A stretch of DNA of 48,075 bases, taken from the NCBI GenBank assembly GCA_007695195.1, contig REEG01000130.1:1-48075 (forward strand). The letters are read 5' to 3'. Source of the stretch: Gemmatimonadales bacterium. GTDB taxonomy: Bacteria; Gemmatimonadota; Gemmatimonadetes; Longimicrobiales; Gaopeijiaceae. Made by a program: the position numbers and the translations under genes. Of the stretch, positions 34,487 to 47,915 are shown piece after piece. Numbering within the stretch: position 1 is the first letter of the stretch; each line of letters starts with the position of its first letter. Below the pieces are notes generated by a model. It saw nothing but the letters and a program-made list of their open reading frames with translations, did not search any database and had not been told where the DNA came from.

Positions 34487-34530
34487 GTGTTCATGGTGTG
34501 TTCACTTCTTGTAGAGATATGGTTGACATG
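34487..34530 (+). promoter_or_regulatory. Tandem 11-bp direct repeats, probable CarH-type operator
   Basis: GTGTTCATGGT (34487-34497) and GTGTTCACTTC (34498-34508) share their first seven bases; TTGTAGAGATA (34509-34519) keeps the TGT and A at the same positions, and TGGTTGACATG (34520-34530) keeps G, T, T and A while containing the -35 box. TGT falls at 34488, 34499 and 34510, exactly 11 bp apart. CarH of Thermus is known to bind tandem 11-bp direct repeats overlapping a -35 element. Assignment is inference from this geometry and the adjacent gene. Confidence 0.6.
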
Positions 34531-34551
34531 AGGGCCAATAACGTGCAAAAT
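34523..34551 (+). promoter_or_regulatory. Promoter of the B12-regulator/carotenoid operon
   Basis: TTGACA (34523-34528), 17-bp spacer, CAAAAT (34546-34551): a perfect -35 and a 4/6 -10. The start of transcription would fall near 34558, about 48 bp before the ATG at 34606. Confidence 0.72.
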
Positions 34552-34605
34552 ACCGGATCAGGTCGAAATCGACCTCCTCGTGCCGATCCCGAACCCAGGA
34601 TAACC

Positions 34606-35568
34606 ATGCAGGGATACAACTCCGACCTTTTCCTGACCACATCCGAGACCGCCGATCTCCTCGGGGTACACCCTTCCACCGTGAAGCGTTGGGCCGATGG
34701 TGATGGCCTCGACGCCGACAAGACGGTGGGTGGGCATCGTCGGATCTACCTCCGGACCGCGCTTTCCTTTGCCGAGGAGCGGGGGATCGACACCTTCCTC
34801 ACCCCCTTCGCACCGTTTGAGTCCCACGTCTGGCTTGCCGTCCGGGATGCCAAGGATCATCAGGACTTCCAGCGGATCCGTTCCCTGGCCCTGGGTTGGT
34901 TGATTCGCGGATACCCCCGTCGGGTCACGGCACTCTTCCAGGAACTCATCTCCCGCCCGGACCTCTCCTTCGCACAGGTATGTGACGAGGCCATCCAGCC
35001 CTTCATGGCCGAAGTGGGTACCGCGTGGCGGGAAGGACGACTTCGCATCGGCGAAGAGCACATGGCCAGTCAGGCCATCCTGGAGGCGCTGATCCAGTTC
35101 AGTCCCCGGAACCGCCTGGAAGATCCCGATGAAGACGCCGGCCGCCGGCATCCGGTGGCGGTGGTGGGAGCCATGGAGGGGGACCATCACCAGATCGGCT
35201 CCATGTGCATCCGCGTCCTGTTGGAGCGCGAAGGGTGGCAGGTCTTCTTCCCCGGAGCCAACACGCCGGTTGAGGAGTTTGCAGCGATCCAGCGGGCTCG
35301 TTCCGCCGATCTCGTTTGCATTTCCACCTCGCCGCCGGCGGCCGGAGCCAATATGCGCCGGGCCACGGAACTGCTCCGGGAGTACTACCGCCCGACCCAT
35401 CCCTACAACCTGGTCTTCGGTGGAAGCCGGATCCGGTCCCAATCGGTATTGTCCGGAGACCTCCCATTCCGTAGCGTAGAGCTTTTCGAATCCGCCCGAG
35501 AATTCACCGACTGGGTCCGCGACCGCTGGGGAGGAGCAGACGACAAGGCATGGATGGAATCCGCGTGA
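34606..35568 (+). CDS. MerR-type regulator with B12-binding domain (CarH/LitR-like photoreceptor)
   Basis: 320 residues. MerR-like DNA-binding domain: LTTSETADLLGVHPSTVKRWAD...KTVGGHRRIY (about 9-48). A four-helix domain contains W141-x9-E151-H152, the Wx9EH signature of light-sensing cobalamin domains. The Rossmann B12 domain has the D-x-H-x2-G motif as DHHQIG, with His195 the likely lower axial ligand, then ISTSPPAAGANM and FGGSRI. In CarH, adenosylcobalamin drives a DNA-binding tetramer in the dark and light breaks it, inducing carotenoid genes. The residue after Trp141 is Arg, where Thermus CarH has the His that forms the bis-His light adduct. Start chosen at ATG with AGGA 5 bp upstream; earlier in-frame codons would lie inside the promoter. 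The gene overlaps cruF. An AerR/PpaA-type role is the alternative. Confidence 0.88.
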   Translation: MQGYNSDLFLTTSETADLLGVHPSTVKRWADGDGLDADKTVGGHRRIYLRTALSFAEERGIDTFLTPFAPFESHVWLAVRDAKDHQDFQRIRSLALGWLIRGYPRRVTALFQELISRPDLSFAQVCDEAIQPFMAEVGTAWREGRLRIGEEHMASQAILEALIQFSPRNRLEDPDEDAGRRHPVAVVGAMEGDHHQIGSMCIRVLLEREGWQVFFPGANTPVEEFAAIQRARSADLVCISTSPPAAGANMRRATELLREYYRPTHPYNLVFGGSRIRSQSVLSGDLPFRSVELFESAREFTDWVRDRWGGADDKAWMESA

Positions 35569-36458
35569 ACACGGCACGGACCGGGGGGATTCGGTCTCCG
35601 GAGGGGATCGGCCTGATCGCCTTCCTGGTTTTCACCTTCATTGCGTTGGCAGGCTACGGGATCTTTGGTCTCCGGCCGTGGAACCTGCCCATGCACATAG
35701 ATCTGGTTGTCTCCTTCTGGGAGATCTCCAACCAGTTCTTCGCCCAACTCCACATCATCCTCGGTTCGGTGGTCCTGGGCATCCTCCTGGTACGCTACGC
35801 CGGTTGGAAGTGGTTTCCAGCCTTCGTTCTCGTCTACGTTTTCTCGTTTCTCAGCGAGTACTTCGGGACCGGCTACGGCATCCCCTTCGGTCACTACACC
35901 TACACTGAGCTTCTGGGCTGGAAGATTGATGACCGGGTCCCCTGGGTGATTCCGCTGAGCTGGTTCCTCATGGCGGTTCCCTCCTATGCGCTGGCCCGGG
36001 TGACCTTTCCGGGGCGCGCGGGGCGTTGGCCCCGGATTCTCTTTGCCGCCGTTCTTCTGACGCTCTGGGACCTGGCGCTGGATCCGGCCATGAGCTATCA
36101 GGCGCCTTTCACCGGTCCCCTCTACTGGGTGTGGGACGACACCACGGCGCCATACTACGGCATGCCCTGGGTGAATCTGGCAGGCTGGGTGGGGACGGGG
36201 ATCGTCCTCATGATCTGTCTTGAGTTCACCGGGGCCGACAACTGGACCGATTCCCTTTCGCTTCCGTGGCTGTCGGCCTACTATGGCATCACCGTGCTCA
36301 TGCCCTTCGGAATGATCATCCTGGAGGGCCTCTGGGTTGCGGTCATCACCACCATCGTTGCCTACATTCTGGCGTACGGGTTGCACGTATGGGTCGCCCG
36401 TCGCCGGTCGTCTCCAGCCCACGAGCTGGAGGATCGACCTGTACAGGAGGTTGCATGA
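35550..36458 (+). CDS. cruF: Carotenoid 1,2-hydratase, CruF family
   Basis: 302-residue integral membrane protein with about seven hydrophobic segments. The signature SEYFGTGYGIPFGHYTYTE, VPWVIPLSWFLMAVPSY and LTLWDLALDPAM are those of the CruF/DUF422 carotenoid family, which hydrates the 1,2 double bond of psi ends (gamma-carotene or bisanhydrobacterioruberin-type substrates). In phototrophic Gemmatimonas the antenna carotenoid is reported as an oscillol diglycoside, which needs such hydration; that link is from memory. Start ATG 35550 overlaps the regulator by 19 bp; GTG 35565 (GTGA overlap) is equally good. The stop overlaps the next ATG (ATGA), so all three genes are coupled. Confidence 0.88.
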   Translation: MDGIRVNTARTGGIRSPEGIGLIAFLVFTFIALAGYGIFGLRPWNLPMHIDLVVSFWEISNQFFAQLHIILGSVVLGILLVRYAGWKWFPAFVLVYVFSFLSEYFGTGYGIPFGHYTYTELLGWKIDDRVPWVIPLSWFLMAVPSYALARVTFPGRAGRWPRILFAAVLLTLWDLALDPAMSYQAPFTGPLYWVWDDTTAPYYGMPWVNLAGWVGTGIVLMICLEFTGADNWTDSLSLPWLSAYYGITVLMPFGMIILEGLWVAVITTIVAYILAYGLHVWVARRRSSPAHELEDRPVQEVA

Positions 36459-40789: not shown

Positions 40790-41724
40790 GGCATTCCTCC
40801 CGGTTGGAGCTCGGGCACCCGGCCCGGATCGCCTACGATTCGGCATCCCAGCCCCGCCAGAAGCGCCACCCCATCCGGGGAAAGGCCCGGAGCCTGTCTC
40901 AGCCGCCGCCGCGCCCGCCCCAGGAGACGGATGGATTGGGCGGCGGGTCGTCGTCCACCAGGCGCCTTGCCCAGCGCGGCGTCCTCATCCAGATCCCGAG
41001 CATCGTCGGCCAGCTGGTAGGCCCAGCCCAGATCCTCTCCGAATCCCCAGAGCGCTTCCTGAGTGGCTGCGCCCGCTCCCGCGGCCGCGGCCCCACCCCA
41101 GACGGCAAAGGCGGCCAGATCCGTGGTTTTGCGGCGATGGAGGCGTCGGGCACAGCCGCCATGCCGGAAGGTGCCCAGGAGATCCACGGCCTGACCACCG
41201 GCCATCCCGGACAGCCCGAAGCAGCGTCCCCACACCCCGGCCAGCTCTCCCGCGCTACGGGACGACTGGCCCAGGAGCTCGGCGCTCCGTGCCAGGAGGC
41301 CGACGGCAAGGAGGATGGCTCCGGAGAGGCCCACACGGCGGTGGGTCGCCGAGGCGCCCCTGCGCTCGTCGGCGTCGTCCATGCAGGGTAGGTCGTCCAG
41401 GACCAGGGACGCGGTATGGGTCAGTTCAACGGCTACGGCCACGCCCAGGGCGTCCCGTAGGTCACCGCCACAGGCCCGGGCAGCGGCAAGGCTGAGGAGT
41501 GGACGCCAGCGCCGTCCACCACCGCCCGGAATCCCCACGGCCTGCCTCAATTCCTCTTCCAGGCCGGGAGGCAGCCCGGCGTGATGGACGGTGGAACGGT
41601 AGAGTTCGCGTTCCAGGAGCGGGAGGACCTCCGTCGGAAAGGCGACAGCCAGGTCCAGCCCGTCGGGGAGTCGTGTCCGCCGGGGTTTCTTCACCCCCGG
41701 GGGCTTCTCGATGAGGGCGCTCAT
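40783..41724 (-). CDS. crtE: Geranylgeranyl diphosphate synthase
   Basis: 313-residue bacterial-type prenyl diphosphate synthase. First Asp-rich motif VLDDLPCMDD (Asp110-Asp116, the FPPS/GGPPS type with two residues inserted), GLSGMAGGQAVDL, KTTDLAAFAV, and second Asp-rich motif YQLADDARD. The usual GGKR-x-RP is GGRRWRP here, with Arg for Lys. Its product would feed carotenoids and the geranylgeranyl tail that BchG attaches and BchP reduces. ATG overlaps bchP by 4 bp. This is distinct from the synthase domain fused to phytoene synthase at 36455. Confidence 0.9.
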   Translation of the reverse strand: MSALIEKPPGVKKPRRTRLPDGLDLAVAFPTEVLPLLERELYRSTVHHAGLPPGLEEELRQAVGIPGGGGRRWRPLLSLAAARACGGDLRDALGVAVAVELTHTASLVLDDLPCMDDADERRGASATHRRVGLSGAILLAVGLLARSAELLGQSSRSAGELAGVWGRCFGLSGMAGGQAVDLLGTFRHGGCARRLHRRKTTDLAAFAVWGGAAAAGAGAATQEALWGFGEDLGWAYQLADDARDLDEDAALGKAPGGRRPAAQSIRLLGRARRRLRQAPGLSPDGVALLAGLGCRIVGDPGRVPELQPGGMPC

Positions 41725-42908
41725 GCCGATACCAATCCCGTGAGGTGGCCCAGATTCTTGAAGAAGATCCGGGCGTGAGCGAGGGGGCGGGCCTTCACCA
41801 GCTCCTTCTGCATGTATCCCTCGAAGGTCAGTTCCTGGACGTCCCGGTCCCGGCAGATGGCCACGAAGCGCTCTCGGCGCTCGTCGTCCGTGTACCAGAA
41901 CCGCTGCATGAGGCCCAGGACCCAGAAGACCTGCCCATGGGTCTTGAGGAACCGCTTACGAGCCTGCGCCAGAACCTTGACGTTTCCCGTCTGCAGCACT
42001 TCGTCTCCCACCTCCGCCGCCAGGCGTCCGCCGGTCATGGCGTAGAAGATTCCCTCTCCCGAGGAGGGGGCCACCACCCCGGCGGCATCTCCCGCCAGGA
42101 TCACATCTCGCCCATTGTCCCAGTGGGGGAGCGGCTTGAGGGGAATGGGAGCGCCTTCCTTCCGAATGGTGCGGGCTTCGGCGAGTCCCGTCTGTTCCCG
42201 GAGGGTCGAGATGGCGCCGCGCATGTCGAAGCCGCGCATTGAGGTCCCGGTCCCCACCGAGGTGGTGTGGCCGTGGGGAAAGACCCAGGCGTAGAAGTCC
42301 GGTGAGAGGGTGGACCGGTAATAGACGTCGCAGCGCTGCGGCTCGAAGGCCTCGGTGGCCACGTCCGGAGACTCGATGATCTCGTGGTAGGCGAAGACGA
42401 ACTTCCCCTTGTCCGAGTCCGGTACCTCCTGGCGTGCCACCTGGGAGAGGGCCCCATCGGCCCCTACCACGAGGCGTGCCGCGATGCTCTCTTCCTCTCC
42501 ACCGCGGCTGGAGCCGGCGGTGTAGCGCACCACGGCGGAGCCGTCCCGCTGCCGCTCGATGTTCTTGTAGGTCCCCGTGACACGGGTGGCCCCGGCGGAG
42601 GCGGCCCGGGTCCGGAGCCATTCATCGAAGGGACCCCGATCCACCATCCCCACGAACCCATTCCCCACGGGAATGTCCACCTTCTCTCCCCGCGGAGAGA
42701 GGATCCGGGCGGTGTCCACCTGGTTTACCAGGATCGACTCGGGGACGTCAAAGGCCTCCATGAGTCGGGGTGGGACGGCCCCTCCGCACGGTTTTGCCCG
42801 CCCTGCCCGGTCCAGGAGGACCACGTCGTGCCCCTTCTGTGCCAGTTCGTGGGCTGCAGTGGCCCCGGAGGGACCACCTCCAACAACGACGACGTCTACC
42901 TTCTTCAT
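41721..42908 (-). CDS. bchP: Geranylgeranyl reductase (bacteriochlorophyll)
   Basis: 395-residue FAD-dependent reductase that hydrogenates the geranylgeranyl tail to phytyl. FAD motif VVVVGGGPSGATAAHELA (10-19), the strongly conserved KPCGGAVPPRL, VGADGALSQVAR, FYAWVFPHGHTTSVGTGT and the FAD-binding ILAGDAAGVVAPSSGEGIFYAM are present, followed by RFLKTHGQVFWVLGLMQRFWY, which separates BchP from archaeal homologues. GGAGGAG precedes the ATG; the start overlaps the bciB stop by 4 bp. It is in the middle of the pigment operon. Confidence 0.96.
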   Translation of the reverse strand: MKKVDVVVVGGGPSGATAAHELAQKGHDVVLLDRAGRAKPCGGAVPPRLMEAFDVPESILVNQVDTARILSPRGEKVDIPVGNGFVGMVDRGPFDEWLRTRAASAGATRVTGTYKNIERQRDGSAVVRYTAGSSRGGEEESIAARLVVGADGALSQVARQEVPDSDKGKFVFAYHEIIESPDVATEAFEPQRCDVYYRSTLSPDFYAWVFPHGHTTSVGTGTSMRGFDMRGAISTLREQTGLAEARTIRKEGAPIPLKPLPHWDNGRDVILAGDAAGVVAPSSGEGIFYAMTGGRLAAEVGDEVLQTGNVKVLAQARKRFLKTHGQVFWVLGLMQRFWYTDDERRERFVAICRDRDVQELTFEGYMQKELVKARPLAHARIFFKNLGHLTGLVSA

Positions 42909-44167
42909 GATCTCTCCTCCGGTTCCGGCTGCAGTCCGTAAGGGCTGGCGAGGTCCCACACATGGGACGGGATCATCCGCTTGATCCGACGCGGGTGGTG
43001 GCGCCGGAGTTGGATGATGGATTCCACGGCTTTCATCTCGACCCGGGTGCGGGCGAATTCAGTTCCCGCCGGGCCCAGGAGCGGCATGAGGCGTCCCACG
43101 ATGGGACGGGCCCACGACGGCATCTTCCGCAGGGGAAGGCCATCGGCGCTCCGCTGTACGGCTTTCATGAACGACTGGACGGCTCCCTTGCGGCGCCCCC
43201 GACTGGTGGGTTCCTCCAGGGCGAGTTCTTCACCCAGGAGCTCCACCATCTCCCGGCCCCGCTCGTTGCGGATGATGAGCCACTGGTCCCCATCTCCGCC
43301 CATATAGCCCACCGTGAGATCCGAGAGGACGTTCACGTAGTCCACGCAGCTCCGGCAGGTGAGGGGGAAGAAGTCCTGGGGGAGCTCCGAGAGGGGGAGT
43401 TGCAGGAAGGGGATTTCCCGGACTTCTCCATCGCGGAAGCGCACTTCCACGTGGTAGTCCGCCCGGAATTCCAGGTAGGTGATCTCGTCGGGTCGATCCG
43501 AGAGCTTGGCCAGGAAGTGGTGGAAGTTATCGGTGGTGGTGTTGTCGCTGCATGGCGTTCCCACCACCCGGAGTTCATCCAGCTCCAGGGTCTCCTGGAG
43601 AGCCCGGAGGGCATGGACCTGGCAGGGGATCCCCACCACGGCCAGGCGCCGGATGCCCTGGCGTTCCACCTCATCCAGAAGGGCCAGGATGGGGGAGTAG
43701 CCCATCTTCATCCCGCGGCAGCTCTTCATCCCCCCGGCCTCCGTCACCAGCACAGGGCGGGGCCGCCAGCGGTCATCCGGATGGGCGGCGGTGGCCAGGA
43801 CTGCGTCCACCAGGCCCTCTTCCAGAAGTCGCTCCCCGATCCTGGTGGTGATCCCCGTCCACTGGGCCCCGGGGAGGGGCGAGCGGAGCCGGGCCCTGGC
43901 CAGTCTCAGGAAGGGGCCGAAGTGGAGTTCATCGGGCCGATTCGGGTCCCGGGACCGACCATGGACCTGCGCCTCCAACTCGGCGTATCGGGGTCGGATG
44001 AACTGACAGGCCGTCCCACACCGGTGGGGGTCGCTCGTCCGGGAGATGCCGCAGTCGGTGCAGAGGTCCCTGTGTACCGGTTCGGCCAGCGGATACGCCA
44101 TCACCCCTTGGCCCCCGCCGAGGACCGGGAGGGGAGAACGGGTGGGGGACTGCGTCGGGGCGGCCAT
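42905..44167 (-). CDS. bciB: BciB-like 8-vinyl reductase (F420 hydrogenase beta-subunit family)
   Basis: 420 residues of the FrhB/BciB family. The N-terminal cysteine cluster DLCTDCGISRTSDPHRCG...C (Cys36, 39, 50, 54) is followed by ACQFIRPRYAELEAQVHGR, GMKSCRGMKMGYSPILALLDEV, VGIPCQVHALRAL, VVGTPCSDNTTTDNF, YLEFRADYHVEVRF and FPLTCRSCVDYVNVLSDLTVGYMGG. These are the features of BciB, the flavin/[4Fe-4S] enzyme that reduces the C8 vinyl group of divinyl (proto)chlorophyllide with ferredoxin. The context (between bch2 and bchP) supports this over an F420 role. ATG overlaps the pucC stop by one base (TGATG). Confidence 0.9.
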   Translation of the reverse strand: MAAPTQSPTRSPLPVLGGGQGVMAYPLAEPVHRDLCTDCGISRTSDPHRCGTACQFIRPRYAELEAQVHGRSRDPNRPDELHFGPFLRLARARLRSPLPGAQWTGITTRIGERLLEEGLVDAVLATAAHPDDRWRPRPVLVTEAGGMKSCRGMKMGYSPILALLDEVERQGIRRLAVVGIPCQVHALRALQETLELDELRVVGTPCSDNTTTDNFHHFLAKLSDRPDEITYLEFRADYHVEVRFRDGEVREIPFLQLPLSELPQDFFPLTCRSCVDYVNVLSDLTVGYMGGDGDQWLIIRNERGREMVELLGEELALEEPTSRGRRKGAVQSFMKAVQRSADGLPLRKMPSWARPIVGRLMPLLGPAGTEFARTRVEMKAVESIIQLRRHHPRRIKRMIPSHVWDLASPYGLQPEPEERS

Positions 44168-45531
44168 CAACCGGGCTCCGAGAGGGCCAGGCCCCTGGCA
44201 ATGGCCGTCTGGTTGGCCAGTGCCTCACCGCCGGCGGGGCGAGGCGAGGTGCGGGGCATCCCCAGAATGATCCAGGCCGCCACCACGAAGAGGATCCCTT
44301 CGAGGATGAAGACCATGACGTATCCCAGGGTCGGGGAGCCCAGGAGGGTACGGGCCACGTCGGAGAGGATGGCGCCCATGAGTCCTCCGGTTCCGTAGGC
44401 GATGGCCTGTGACGCGCCCCAGAATCCCATACGGAGGCCGGCGCCGCCAACCTTGCCCTGGACGGTGAGGCCCATCATGGCGCCGATGGCGGCGACGGCG
44501 AAGACCCCGTTGGCCACACCAAGGGCGAAGACCGAGAGCTTCATCCCCTCGGTCCACCCCATGACCGGCATGACGGCCAGGGCCATGAGGGCCACCGCCG
44601 AGCCGATGCACCCTGCTGCCGCCCAGCGGGTGAGGGTGCCAAAGCGGGAGGCGCCGAAGGCTCCGATGGCCATTCCCAGCAGCGCCCCGCCATGCTGCAT
44701 CCCGGCGACCCTGGTGGATTCACCCGGCGTCATCCCGAAGACGGACCCGGCGAAGGGCTCCAGGATGATCTCCTGAGCCGAGTAGGCCATCATGGCCACG
44801 AAGATGAAGGTGGCGAACCGCCGGGATTGGGGGTCGCCCCACATGGCCGCGAAGGCCTCCTTGAACGACACCTCTTCCCGGTCACTCCCGCCGGTGCCCC
44901 GGAAGGCGTCCACCACGATTCCATCCCGGCGGCCCCACACCGCCACCACCGTCAGGACCATGGCCGTGCCGCAGACCCCGGCCGTCACCGCCACCATCCG
45001 GCTGTACGAGAAGGGATCCAGGAGGAAGCCGGCGATCATGGCCGTGGCGATCATCCCTGCGATCATCATGATCCAGGTGAGGGCCGCCGCTCCGGCCATC
45101 CGTCGCTCATCAACCCGTTCCGCCAGGTAGGCCAGGAAGGGAGTGGACGAGGCGCTGATCCCGAAGCCCAGGAAGAAGAAGGCCAGGACGGCGGCTCCAA
45201 TCCCGAGCAAGGTGCTCGTCTCCATGAGGGCCGTGGCGGCGGCGGCGCCGATGCCGGCCAGGACCACGATCGCCATTCCCCCCACGATCCAGGTGATTCG
45301 CTTGCCGTCGGTGTCGGACCGGAAGCCCATCCTGGGGCGCAGAAGCTGCACAGCGAAATGAAGGGCAACCAGGGCACCCGGGACGGCCGCCGCCAGGCCC
45401 AACTCCACCACCATCACCCGATTCAGGGTGGAGGTCATGATGACCATGATGGCACCGATGGAGACCTGGATCAGCGCCAGCCGAGCAATACTCGGCCAGC
45501 TCAGGCCCCGGATCTCGCCCGACCCCGTCAT
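44167..45531 (-). CDS. PucC/Bch2/LhaA-family transporter-like assembly factor
   Basis: 454-residue MFS-type membrane protein with about 12 hydrophobic segments. SIGAIMVIMTSTLNRVMVVELGL, LQLLRPRMGFRSDTDGKRITWI-type loops, STPFLAYLAERVDERRMAGAAALTWIMMI, YSAQEIILEPFAGSVFGMTPGESTRVAGMQHGGALLGM and GGAGLRMGFWGASQAIAYGTGGL identify the PucC/LhaA/Bch2 group, which aids assembly of light-harvesting complexes and may deliver bacteriochlorophyll. Its place after bchG matches the bch2 position in purple bacteria. The start overlaps bchG by 4 bp. Confidence 0.95.
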   Translation of the reverse strand: MTGSGEIRGLSWPSIARLALIQVSIGAIMVIMTSTLNRVMVVELGLAAAVPGALVALHFAVQLLRPRMGFRSDTDGKRITWIVGGMAIVVLAGIGAAAATALMETSTLLGIGAAVLAFFFLGFGISASSTPFLAYLAERVDERRMAGAAALTWIMMIAGMIATAMIAGFLLDPFSYSRMVAVTAGVCGTAMVLTVVAVWGRRDGIVVDAFRGTGGSDREEVSFKEAFAAMWGDPQSRRFATFIFVAMMAYSAQEIILEPFAGSVFGMTPGESTRVAGMQHGGALLGMAIGAFGASRFGTLTRWAAAGCIGSAVALMALAVMPVMGWTEGMKLSVFALGVANGVFAVAAIGAMMGLTVQGKVGGAGLRMGFWGASQAIAYGTGGLMGAILSDVARTLLGSPTLGYVMVFILEGILFVVAAWIILGMPRTSPRPAGGEALANQTAIARGLALSEPG

Positions 45532-46379
45532 ACTCCCCCCCTGAGAGCGAACGCGGTGATCATCATGCCGGAGACGTACAGGGGGACACCCAGGGCGCTG
45601 AGCCAGAGAGCTCGCTCACGGGGCGCCGCCAGGAACCGGGCCATCATGGGGATCTGGACCAGCAGGAGGGCACCGACGGCCAGAGCATGGCCCGGGCGGT
45701 CCCAGAAGAGGAGGAGGCCCACCACTACCACCTGGGCCACGGCCATGACGACGGAGGCGACCCAGGCCGCCCGCTTGGGGCCAAGGCGAGCCGGAAGGGA
45801 TCGGATCCCCACCCGGAGGTCGCCCTCGATGGCCTTGTAGTCGTTCAGCGTCATGATCCCGTGAGCTCCGAGGCTATAGATCAGGGCCACCAGGAGAATC
45901 TCTCCCGATGGGAGCGCCCCTCCGAGGAGGACGGCGGCTCCGGTCACCCAGGCCAATCCTTCGTAGGAGATCCCCACCGCCAGGTTGCCTACCCAGCCGT
46001 TCTCCTTGAATCGGAAGGGAGGAGCCGAGTATCCCCAGGCCAGCACCAGGGCCAGGAGGGTCGCGATGAACCCCCACGTTCCCAGGAACCAACCGGCTCC
46101 AGCCGAGACCAGCGTCCATCCGATGGCCAGCCACAGACCCCATCGTCCCGGGATCCGCCCGCTGGGGATGGGCCGATTCGGCTCATTGATTCGATCCACG
46201 TGCCGGTCGAACCAGTCGTTCACCGCCTGGCTGCTGGCGCACACCAGCGGCCCGGCCACGACGATCCCCAGAAGGGTGATGTGCCACCGGTTCCCCAGAG
46301 GGACCCCCGATGAGACCGCTCCGCAGAGGAACGCCCACATGGGGGGGAACCAGGTCACAGGCTTGAAGAGCTCCAGCAC
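45528..46379 (-). CDS. bchG: Bacteriochlorophyll/chlorophyll a synthase
   Basis: UbiA-family prenyltransferase that esterifies (bacterio)chlorophyllide with geranylgeranyl diphosphate in the membrane. Motifs: LELFKPVTWFPPMWAFLCG, the metal-binding SSQAVNDWFDRHVDRINEPNRPIPSGRI, LAWGYSAPPFRFKENGWVGN and the second Asp motif SLGAHGIMTLNDYKAIEGDLRVGIRSLP; about eight membrane segments. I use the GTG at 46379 (283 residues). The only upstream alternative, TTG at 46445 (305 residues), is the -35 box of a good promoter and lies in a PpsR operator, although a few residues before the GTG (PQPGA) resemble other BchG N-termini. First gene of the operon. Confidence 0.93.
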   Translation of the reverse strand: MLELFKPVTWFPPMWAFLCGAVSSGVPLGNRWHITLLGIVVAGPLVCASSQAVNDWFDRHVDRINEPNRPIPSGRIPGRWGLWLAIGWTLVSAGAGWFLGTWGFIATLLALVLAWGYSAPPFRFKENGWVGNLAVGISYEGLAWVTGAAVLLGGALPSGEILLVALIYSLGAHGIMTLNDYKAIEGDLRVGIRSLPARLGPKRAAWVASVVMAVAQVVVVGLLLFWDRPGHALAVGALLLVQIPMMARFLAAPRERALWLSALGVPLYVSGMMITAFALRGGV

Positions 46380-46413
46380 CGCTCCAGGCTGCGGGATCTC
46401 CCCGCCCTTCGAG

Positions 46414-46457
46414 TGTAATTTTGGGATGACGGAATGGTCTGTCAAGAAATTTAGACA
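46414..46457 (-). promoter_or_regulatory. Tandem PpsR/CrtJ-type operator upstream of bchG
   Basis: TGT-N12-ACA at 46440-46457 (TGTCAAGAAATTTAGACA) and TGT-N12-ACG at 46414-46431, one base from consensus, separated by exactly 8 bp. PpsR/CrtJ is known to bind TGT-N12-ACA, cooperatively at pairs about 8 bp apart. The ppsR gene is immediately upstream. Confidence 0.7.
46417..46445 (-). promoter_or_regulatory. bchG operon promoter
   Basis: On the minus strand: TTGACA (46445-46440), 17-bp spacer, AAAATT (46422-46417). Perfect -35 and a 3/6 -10. The -35 overlaps one PpsR site and the -10 the other, as expected for repression. Confidence 0.55.
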
Positions 46458-46466
46458 CTCAGGGTC

Positions 46467-46493
46467 AAAAAAAATGCCGCTCCTCTCGGCCGG
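46467..46493 (-). terminator. Terminator after ppsR
   Basis: On the minus strand a short GC stem (GCCG...CGGC, with an alternative CCGC...GCGG pairing) is followed by an A and eight T (A8 on the plus strand, 46467-46474). The T-run is strong, the stem short. Confidence 0.55.
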
Positions 46494-46499
46494 TGCGGG

Positions 46500-47915
46500 C
46501 TATTTCCGATCCCTGCTCGGTCCCTCCAGGTTGTAGCGACGCAGCTTTGTATAGAGGCTTTGTCGGCTGACCCCCAGGAGTTCAGCCGCCGCCGTCCGGT
46601 TGTCGTCGGTGAGTTCCAGCGCCGATTCGATGAAGTGGGCCTCCACGATGGCCGTGGTGTTCTGGACCAACTCCTTCAGCGAAACCTTGCCCACCTGGTG
46701 GGTAAGCTCGTCCATGGTGCGCGACAGGTCGCGACGCGCTGTGCGGTCCACCGCCAGCCGGCGGCTCACGTTCCGAACCATGATCCCGATTCCCGGCGGA
46801 TCCATCTCCTGGAGGAGGATTCCCGAGAGCTCCACTTCCGTCTCCATGTCCAGCTCTCCCAGGAGTGTGGTGGGGAAGAGTCGGACCACCCCGAACTTCT
46901 GGAGGTTCGCCAGGAGGACCGTGAGGTCGGCGCCGGGCCTTCCGAGCCAACGCCCCAGGCTCTCGCCCACCGCTTCGTCTTCCGACGAGAGCTGCACAAG
47001 GTCAAGGAAGGCCCGGTTCGCCCCCAGTACGCGCGCGTCCATGTCGGTGACGACCCACCCGTCCGGAGCATTGGCCAGGAGCTTCAGGGAGCGAAGGTCC
47101 CGATTCCCCATATCCGACGCCGCCATCTGGATGGGTCGGAGATGGACGAGGAAGACCCGGGATCGGTCTTCCCGGATCAGGGACGCCTCGAACCACCAGG
47201 CGCTGCCGGGCCCCAGGGTGATGGGGACCGGTTCACCCCGGCCCGTGTCGGCCACCGACGCCAGATGGCGCCGCACCTCTTCGGCCTCGTCGTAGTCCAG
47301 GTCCATCCCCTCGGGAATGCGGCTGTCCAGAAGATCGCGGAGGGGGCGTCCGAACGCCTTGCCCGCCGCCTCGTTGGCGTCCACCACCCGGCGGTTGTCC
47401 GCCTCCACCAGAAGCACCGCCTCGGTGGATCGCTGGAAGAGGAGTCGGTAGCGCGTCTCGATCTGGCGGAGTCGCCAGTAGTCACGCTCCAACGCCTGCT
47501 GGGCATCCACCAACTGCTTCTGCAGTTCGGAGAGGGCACGGAGATCCCGACCGAGAGCCAGGAGTCGGCCCTCGTCGTCGTAGCGCACCACCGTGTAGCT
47601 CACCGGGATTTCCACGCCGTCCCGGAAAACCTGGTTCACCTGGCGGTAGCGGGATGCCCCTTCGTCTCGAGCCTCCTGCAGCAGCCCCTTTACCTTGACC
47701 CGGGTCTCGGAGGTGACCGTGTCGATCCAGGCGCGCCCGACCCAGGCATCCGTCCCCTGCTGGGCGAAGGCACGGCCGCGGTGGACCTCCTCCACCGTGC
47801 CGTCGACGCCGATGAGGAGGGCCAGGTCCGAGGACGCCCGAATGAGTCGCTCTATAATGAGCTCGCCGGTGGATCCCTGGGATCCCGGCGCCGTCGTTTC
47901 AAAAATTCTATTCAA
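46500..47915 (-). CDS. ppsR: PpsR/CrtJ-type transcriptional regulator
   Basis: 471 residues. N-terminal PAS-like domain (IRASSDLALLIGVDGTVEEV...WVGRAWIDTV), a coiled Q-linker (LSELQKQLVDAQQALERDYWRL), a second PAS (RYRLLFQRSTEAVLLVEADNRRVVDANEAA), a third PAS (LLANAPDGWVVTDMDARVLGANRAFLDLV) and a C-terminal Fis-type helix-turn-helix (ALELTDDNRTAAAELLGVSRQSLYTKLRRYNL). This is the layout of PpsR/CrtJ, the repressor of photosystem genes. I find no cysteine in the whole protein, so the thiol redox switch described for Rhodobacter homologues cannot operate. Start is TTG with AAGGGG 6 bp upstream. It is followed by a terminator and by the PpsR-type operator of bchG. Confidence 0.95.
   Translation of the reverse strand: MNRIFETTAPGSQGSTGELIIERLIRASSDLALLIGVDGTVEEVHRGRAFAQQGTDAWVGRAWIDTVTSETRVKVKGLLQEARDEGASRYRQVNQVFRDGVEIPVSYTVVRYDDEGRLLALGRDLRALSELQKQLVDAQQALERDYWRLRQIETRYRLLFQRSTEAVLLVEADNRRVVDANEAAGKAFGRPLRDLLDSRIPEGMDLDYDEAEEVRRHLASVADTGRGEPVPITLGPGSAWWFEASLIREDRSRVFLVHLRPIQMAASDMGNRDLRSLKLLANAPDGWVVTDMDARVLGANRAFLDLVQLSSEDEAVGESLGRWLGRPGADLTVLLANLQKFGVVRLFPTTLLGELDMETEVELSGILLQEMDPPGIGIMVRNVSRRLAVDRTARRDLSRTMDELTHQVGKVSLKELVQNTTAIVEAHFIESALELTDDNRTAAAELLGVSRQSLYTKLRRYNLEGPSRDRK

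Follow-up and report, generated by a model that had tools for sequence, protein, structure and literature searches.

A putative tandem PpsR operator at bchG in a photosynthesis gene cluster of the Gemmatimonadota

The bchG Locus and Its Neighborhood

The window, meaning the whole 48,075-nucleotide stretch of DNA analyzed here, is a photosynthesis-cluster contig (G000:C263) from a Gemmatimonadota genome of 3.92 Mb that is 96% complete. Its closest named relative is Gemmatimonadetes MAG CSSed162cmA_149 (73% PpsR identity). Two PpsR-like sites lie between ppsR and bchG, both genes being on the minus strand, and the features of this region are as follows.

46500-47915, minus strand: ppsR, 471 aa, with PAS domains and a Fis-type HTH, cysteine-free
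46467-46474, minus strand: T8 tract behind a hairpin, candidate ppsR terminator
46440-46457, minus strand: PpsR-like site 1, TGT-N12-ACA, 6/6; forward TGTCAAGAAATTTAGACA, in the bchG direction TGTCTAAATTTCTTGACA
46443-46445, minus strand: TTG, the first bases of TTGACA and the sole canonical start in frame upstream of the conserved BchG N-terminus
46418-46445, minus strand: sigma-70-like TTGACA-N16-CAAAAT, 10/12, of doubtful function
46432-46439, no strand: 8-bp spacer between the sites, GAATGGTC, its letters poorly conserved and its length constant
46414-46431, minus strand: PpsR-like site 2, TGT-N12-ACG, 5/6; forward TGTAATTTTGGGATGACG, in the bchG direction CGTCATCCCAAAATTACA
45528-46445, minus strand: bchG (bacteriochlorophyll synthase), the 5' end at 46445 assuming a TTG start
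44167-45531, minus strand: MFS protein of the PucC/BCD family, its gene sharing 4 bp with the end of bchG
41721-42959, minus strand: bchP (geranylgeranyl reductase)

The 4-bp overlap makes it likely that the PucC/BCD-family gene shares the bchG operon, and bchP likely belongs to the same operon. Between these two lies a gene for an FrhB/F420-dehydrogenase beta-like protein (42905-44170, minus strand), possibly a BciB-type divinyl reductase. Elsewhere in the window, a protein with an HTH and two B12-binding domains (34498-35568, plus strand; CarH/LitR-like) is encoded next to a carotenoid-synthesis family gene (35550-36458) and is a possible B12 light sensor for carotenoids.

Hairpins precede the T tract in several relatives, which suggests that ppsR is terminated and that bchG has its own promoter; the folds of loci L109 and L110 are uninformative, the T run taken there being the one inside site 1. 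A consensus scan called no terminator in the window.

The two sites are 18-bp palindromes separated by exactly 8 bp, or 26 bp from center to center, and they precede a photosynthesis operon in a genome that bears ppsR. An earlier sequence-only reading had described a tandem TGT-N12-ACA/TGT-N12-ACG pair at 46414-46457, and its coordinates proved exact when the letters were read. It had also matched the pair to the cooperative binding geometry of CrtJ/PpsR, in a non-proteobacterial cluster and immediately behind ppsR; the sites are indeed of PpsR type, spaced as in Rhodobacter bchC, and have these neighbors. The adjoining gene product belongs to TIGR02040, scoring 447 bits where the cut-off is 275, and has Pfam PAS and HTH_8 domains.

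Rarity of Paired Sites and a Second Putative Operator at bchC

Markov-1 shuffles predict 0.01 pairs of at least 11/12 core matches at spacing 8 for 48 kb of DNA, and the 121 bp at the locus gave no such pair when shuffled 20,000 times. In photosynthesis-cluster contigs of five phototrophic genomes, 384 kb in all, the sole peak was at spacing 8, to which 8/14 of the pairs at 11/12 or better belong. A scan of the 3.9-Mb genome of the window for 8-bp paired sites, as the sequence-only reading had proposed, returned three places under a looser pattern: bchG, bchC and a GC-rich match at C26:29080 that was taken as chance. Credible tandem sites in this genome are thus restricted to bchG and bchC. 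The bchC pair (C26:6864-6907) has an O-methyltransferase gene in the crtF position on one side and bchC (TIGR01202) on the other; after bchC come bchY, bchZ, pufL, pufM and pufC.

Further 8-bp tandem sites were seen in other genomes (G288:C125:3180, G400:C206:18844 and G408:C616:6430), each about 0.8-1.1 kb from a B12-binding-domain gene (frames of 670-900 aa) that may be bchE. In R. sphaeroides, PpsR targets bchEJ. In the Gemmatimonas genome G039, two 6/6 PpsR-like sites with 17 bp between them lie some 1.5 kb upstream of bchC (G039:C1:1595286-1595338; L151:15486-15538).

Palindromes of the TGTCA-N8-TGACA type are bound by several regulator families, which counts for the view that the sites belong to another dimeric regulator. 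So do the many TGTAATGT-type repeats in the non-phototrophic relatives G017, G061 and G064, which match the loose pattern of the genome scan although they represent a different repeat or operator family. These repeats, however, differ in sequence from the bchG and bchC sites; the operons at which the latter stand are both classic PpsR targets, one adjoining ppsR, and the PpsR protein retains its Fis-type HTH. A regulator other than PpsR is on these grounds very improbable.

Conservation Across the Phylum

The sequence-only reading had staked its claim on the motif being conserved upstream of bchG in related genomes, and it is. All 11 family loci that have both genes, the window counted, carry an 8-bp pair with at least 10/12 core matches, as do many Gemmatimonadaceae loci. 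Counting against a PpsR operator, several Gemmatimonadaceae have one strong site while the other has decayed. At bchC the pair occurs in 20/23 Gemmatimonadota loci; there it lies in non-coding DNA, at distances that vary from 47 to 201 bp ahead of the start codon. When spacings of 0-30 were scored equally, spacing 8 was among the best in 21/23 bchC and 40/47 bchG upstream regions. All of these counts come from related genomes and are not independent. Core letters of the sites carry 1.54 bits, and the spacer averages 0.53 bit per position at bchG and 0.14 at bchC. No AT-rich PpsR-like pair was found in two genomes of the same genus that lack ppsR (G262 and G409).

Promoter or Start Codon?

The sequence-only reading had further proposed that the paired sites embed the bchG promoter, with a TTGACA -35 element in one PpsR site and the -10 in the other. 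Spelled out in full, such a model resembles Rhodobacter bchC and takes TTGACA (46445-46440) as the -35 and CAAAAT/AAAATT as the -10, with translation of bchG from a downstream codon. The sigma-70-like match is indeed present, but its role as a promoter is doubtful, as TTGACA overlaps the likely TTG start. In the BchG frame TTGACA reads as a TTG start plus Thr-2, and homologues have ATG-ACA or GTG-ACA at this place. Site 2 would then cover about codons 5-11 of bchG.

The protein sequences argue for this start. BchG homologues share an N-terminus of the form S-V-x-x-x-L-H ... P-x-P-x-A-V-L, in frame through site 2: that of the window is T-D-H-S-V-I-P-K-L-H...P-Q-P-G-A-V-L and that of relative L107 is T-N-P-S-V-S-Q-R-L-H...P-Q-P-G-A-V-L. 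Roseobacter ponti BchG (M-S-V-T-Q-I-I-Q...P-E-P-A-A-A-L) has its annotated M-S-V start at the same place. An open frame runs across site 2 in 11/11 loci, with offsets that are all multiples of 3 (63, 72, 78, 84), and third codon positions take 14/19 of the changes in two relative pairs (P=0.0004). The sole canonical start downstream is a GTG at about 46379, which was rejected: it is unconserved in the family (GTA in L112, GCC in L111) and falls inside the conserved coding motif P-x-P-G-A-V-L.

In favor of the embedded promoter, the 10/12 match compares with 0.0 in shuffles, and Lamprocystis bchG (L054, L056) has TTGACA in site 1, TATAAT in site 2 and an ATG just behind. Downstream of site 2, the changes between the window and its relative L105 also show no coding pattern (6, 3 and 3 by codon position). 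A transcript from the TTGACA promoter would, however, start near 46411 and so lack the TTG codon, and together with the open frame, the third-position changes, the R. ponti start and the unconserved GTG this makes the full promoter model unlikely. The left half of site 1 offers a candidate leaderless promoter, which reads TCTAAA in the window and TCTAAT in L105 and is unconserved. Since TTG is the only canonical in-frame start upstream of the conserved N-terminus, the operator probably straddles the start of bchG.

If site 2 lies in coding sequence, could the protein alone have kept it? Protein constraint could account for its left half (Y-GT, Ser/Val codons), and a relict motif without function, left by chance and coding constraint, could draw on this overlap with the BchG Ser-Val codons and on the little regulation of the cluster seen in Gemmatimonas phototrophica. 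The ACA half is a different matter. In the bchG frame it reads TTA-CAx across the family, and the Leu codon at this position is TTA in 10/11 loci, compared with 0/1,122 of the other Leu codons that these genomes have in ppsR and in the core of bchG. TTA is kept here against codon usage, and hence selection acts on the DNA itself; a constraint on the protein would not suffice to preserve this codon. With the low chance level (0.01 pairs per 48 kb) and the same 8-bp geometry in the non-coding DNA before bchC, at varying distances from the start, a functionless relict is likewise very improbable.

A PpsR Without the Redox Cysteine

CrtJ is oxidized through a cysteine in its HTH (PMC5362033). This residue, C420 of CrtJ, is replaced by Phe or Leu in 53/53 of the Gemmatimonadota PpsR proteins examined (the window; L010-L039, L093-L115), and the window protein, with zero cysteines, falls outside the redox-sensing PpsR/CrtJ subtype. 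The cysteine is present in 37/40 purple-bacterial first-copy PpsR, and second-copy PpsR of Chromatiaceae have Tyr at this position. Our claims exclude the alignment column meant to hold Cys251 of R. sphaeroides, which is unreliable on account of a single divergent sequence and of a numbering that gave 256. Because the HTH cysteine is absent, classical thiol-redox control of Gemmatimonadota PpsR appears unlikely. A Cys436Ala mutant of Rubrivivax PpsR nevertheless still represses aerobically (PMC4452267), so absence of the residue is no proof that oxygen control is absent. In the part of the literature searched, no mention of the missing cysteine in Gemmatimonadota PpsR was found. As a lead, it is more interesting than the detail of the promoter.

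In a quick ppsR tree with long branches, a split with an SH-aLRT of 99 separates the PpsR of the window family, which groups with the Cys-free Chromatiaceae second copy, from other Gemmatimonadota PpsR, which group with the Cys-bearing one; this may reflect two origins or paralogue sorting. The ppsR of L115 (G416) is divergent and possibly decaying: it contains a single in-frame TGA, and its branch is very long.

Proposed Mechanism and Input

The pair has the look of a functional PpsR operator of the Rhodobacter bchC/bchG type, which would extend a known kind of control to the Gemmatimonadota. We hold with good confidence that it is a tandem PpsR operator at bchG, inherited with a horizontally acquired photosynthesis gene cluster. 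PpsR from the adjoining gene would bind both 18-bp palindromes over the bchG start region and block transcription of the bchG-pucC-bchP operon, and the second operator, at bchC, would do likewise for bchCXYZ-puf. We infer that PpsR is the binder, that repression is the effect and that binding is cooperative. That two key operons have conserved tandem operators, maintained in spite of codon usage, is an argument for retention of PpsR control in the phylum.

The switch is probably not set by oxidation of PpsR thiols. In relatives, a gene for an AerR/PpaA-type B12-binding protein lies directly upstream of ppsR, a place before which the window contig ends, and this protein would be the likeliest input. 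Counting against PpsR control, the cluster of G. phototrophica shows no oxygen response and ppsR expression there is unchanged with light; a single PpsR site (bchID-puhE) was reported in the cluster, together with minimal regulation of the transferred photosynthesis genes (PMC11406998). As Gemmatimonas genome G039 (4.72 Mb) has 6/6 sites at both bchG and bchC, the published count may be low. The uniform absence of the redox cysteine would account, in a concrete and testable way, for this lack of response to oxygen. It is conceivable, if still tentative, that throughout the phototrophic Gemmatimonadota a Cys-less PpsR acts via selected tandem operators at bchC and bchG, blind to oxygen and switched by an AerR/PpaA-type B12 photoreceptor. 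If so, this would explain why the G. phototrophica cluster ignores oxygen and dips transiently in strong light, and regulation would have been rewired, not lost, after gene transfer.

Comparison With Known Systems

The closest parallel is bchC of R. capsulatus, for which PMC5362033, citing Ponnampalam 1997 and 1998, gives CrtJ sites at -47/-30 and -21/-4, 8 bp apart. Two TGT-N12-ACA sites 8 bp apart cover the core promoter region there, and bchC in the genome of the window has the same arrangement. Unlike that promoter, the pair at bchG probably lies over the start and first codons, and the PpsR of the window lacks the redox cysteine. In R. sphaeroides, ChIP-seq places PpsR at bchG-pucC-bchP and also at bchCXYZ-pufQ, and loss of ppsR derepresses these operons about 8- and 37-fold (PMC4344238). 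Operon, regulator family and TGT-N12-ACA motif are shared with the window, but a single motif is listed there, the phylum is different and PpsR has the redox cysteine (PMC4344238).

Rubrivivax gelatinosus likewise has an 8-bp pair (crtI), and an ACG-ended site in a bound promoter (pucB), although the genes are different (PMC4452267). Its PpsR binds 8-bp pairs regardless of redox state and 9-bp pairs redox-dependently (PMC4452267), so 8-bp spacing alone implies no redox-dependent cooperative binding. The PpsR2 proteins of Rhodopseudomonas palustris and Bradyrhizobium resemble the protein described here in lacking the HTH cysteine, in R. palustris in most strains, and are described as light-controlled, in R. 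palustris solely so, rather than as redox sensors (PMC6899989). They differ in having a bacteriophytochrome input and a Cys-bearing PpsR1 (PMC6899989), whereas the neighbor in relatives of the window is the AerR/PpaA-type B12 protein. The G. phototrophica cluster belongs to the same phylum and has both ppsR and ppaA; its one reported PpsR site (PMC11406998) contrasts with the 6/6 sites of G039 at bchG and bchC.
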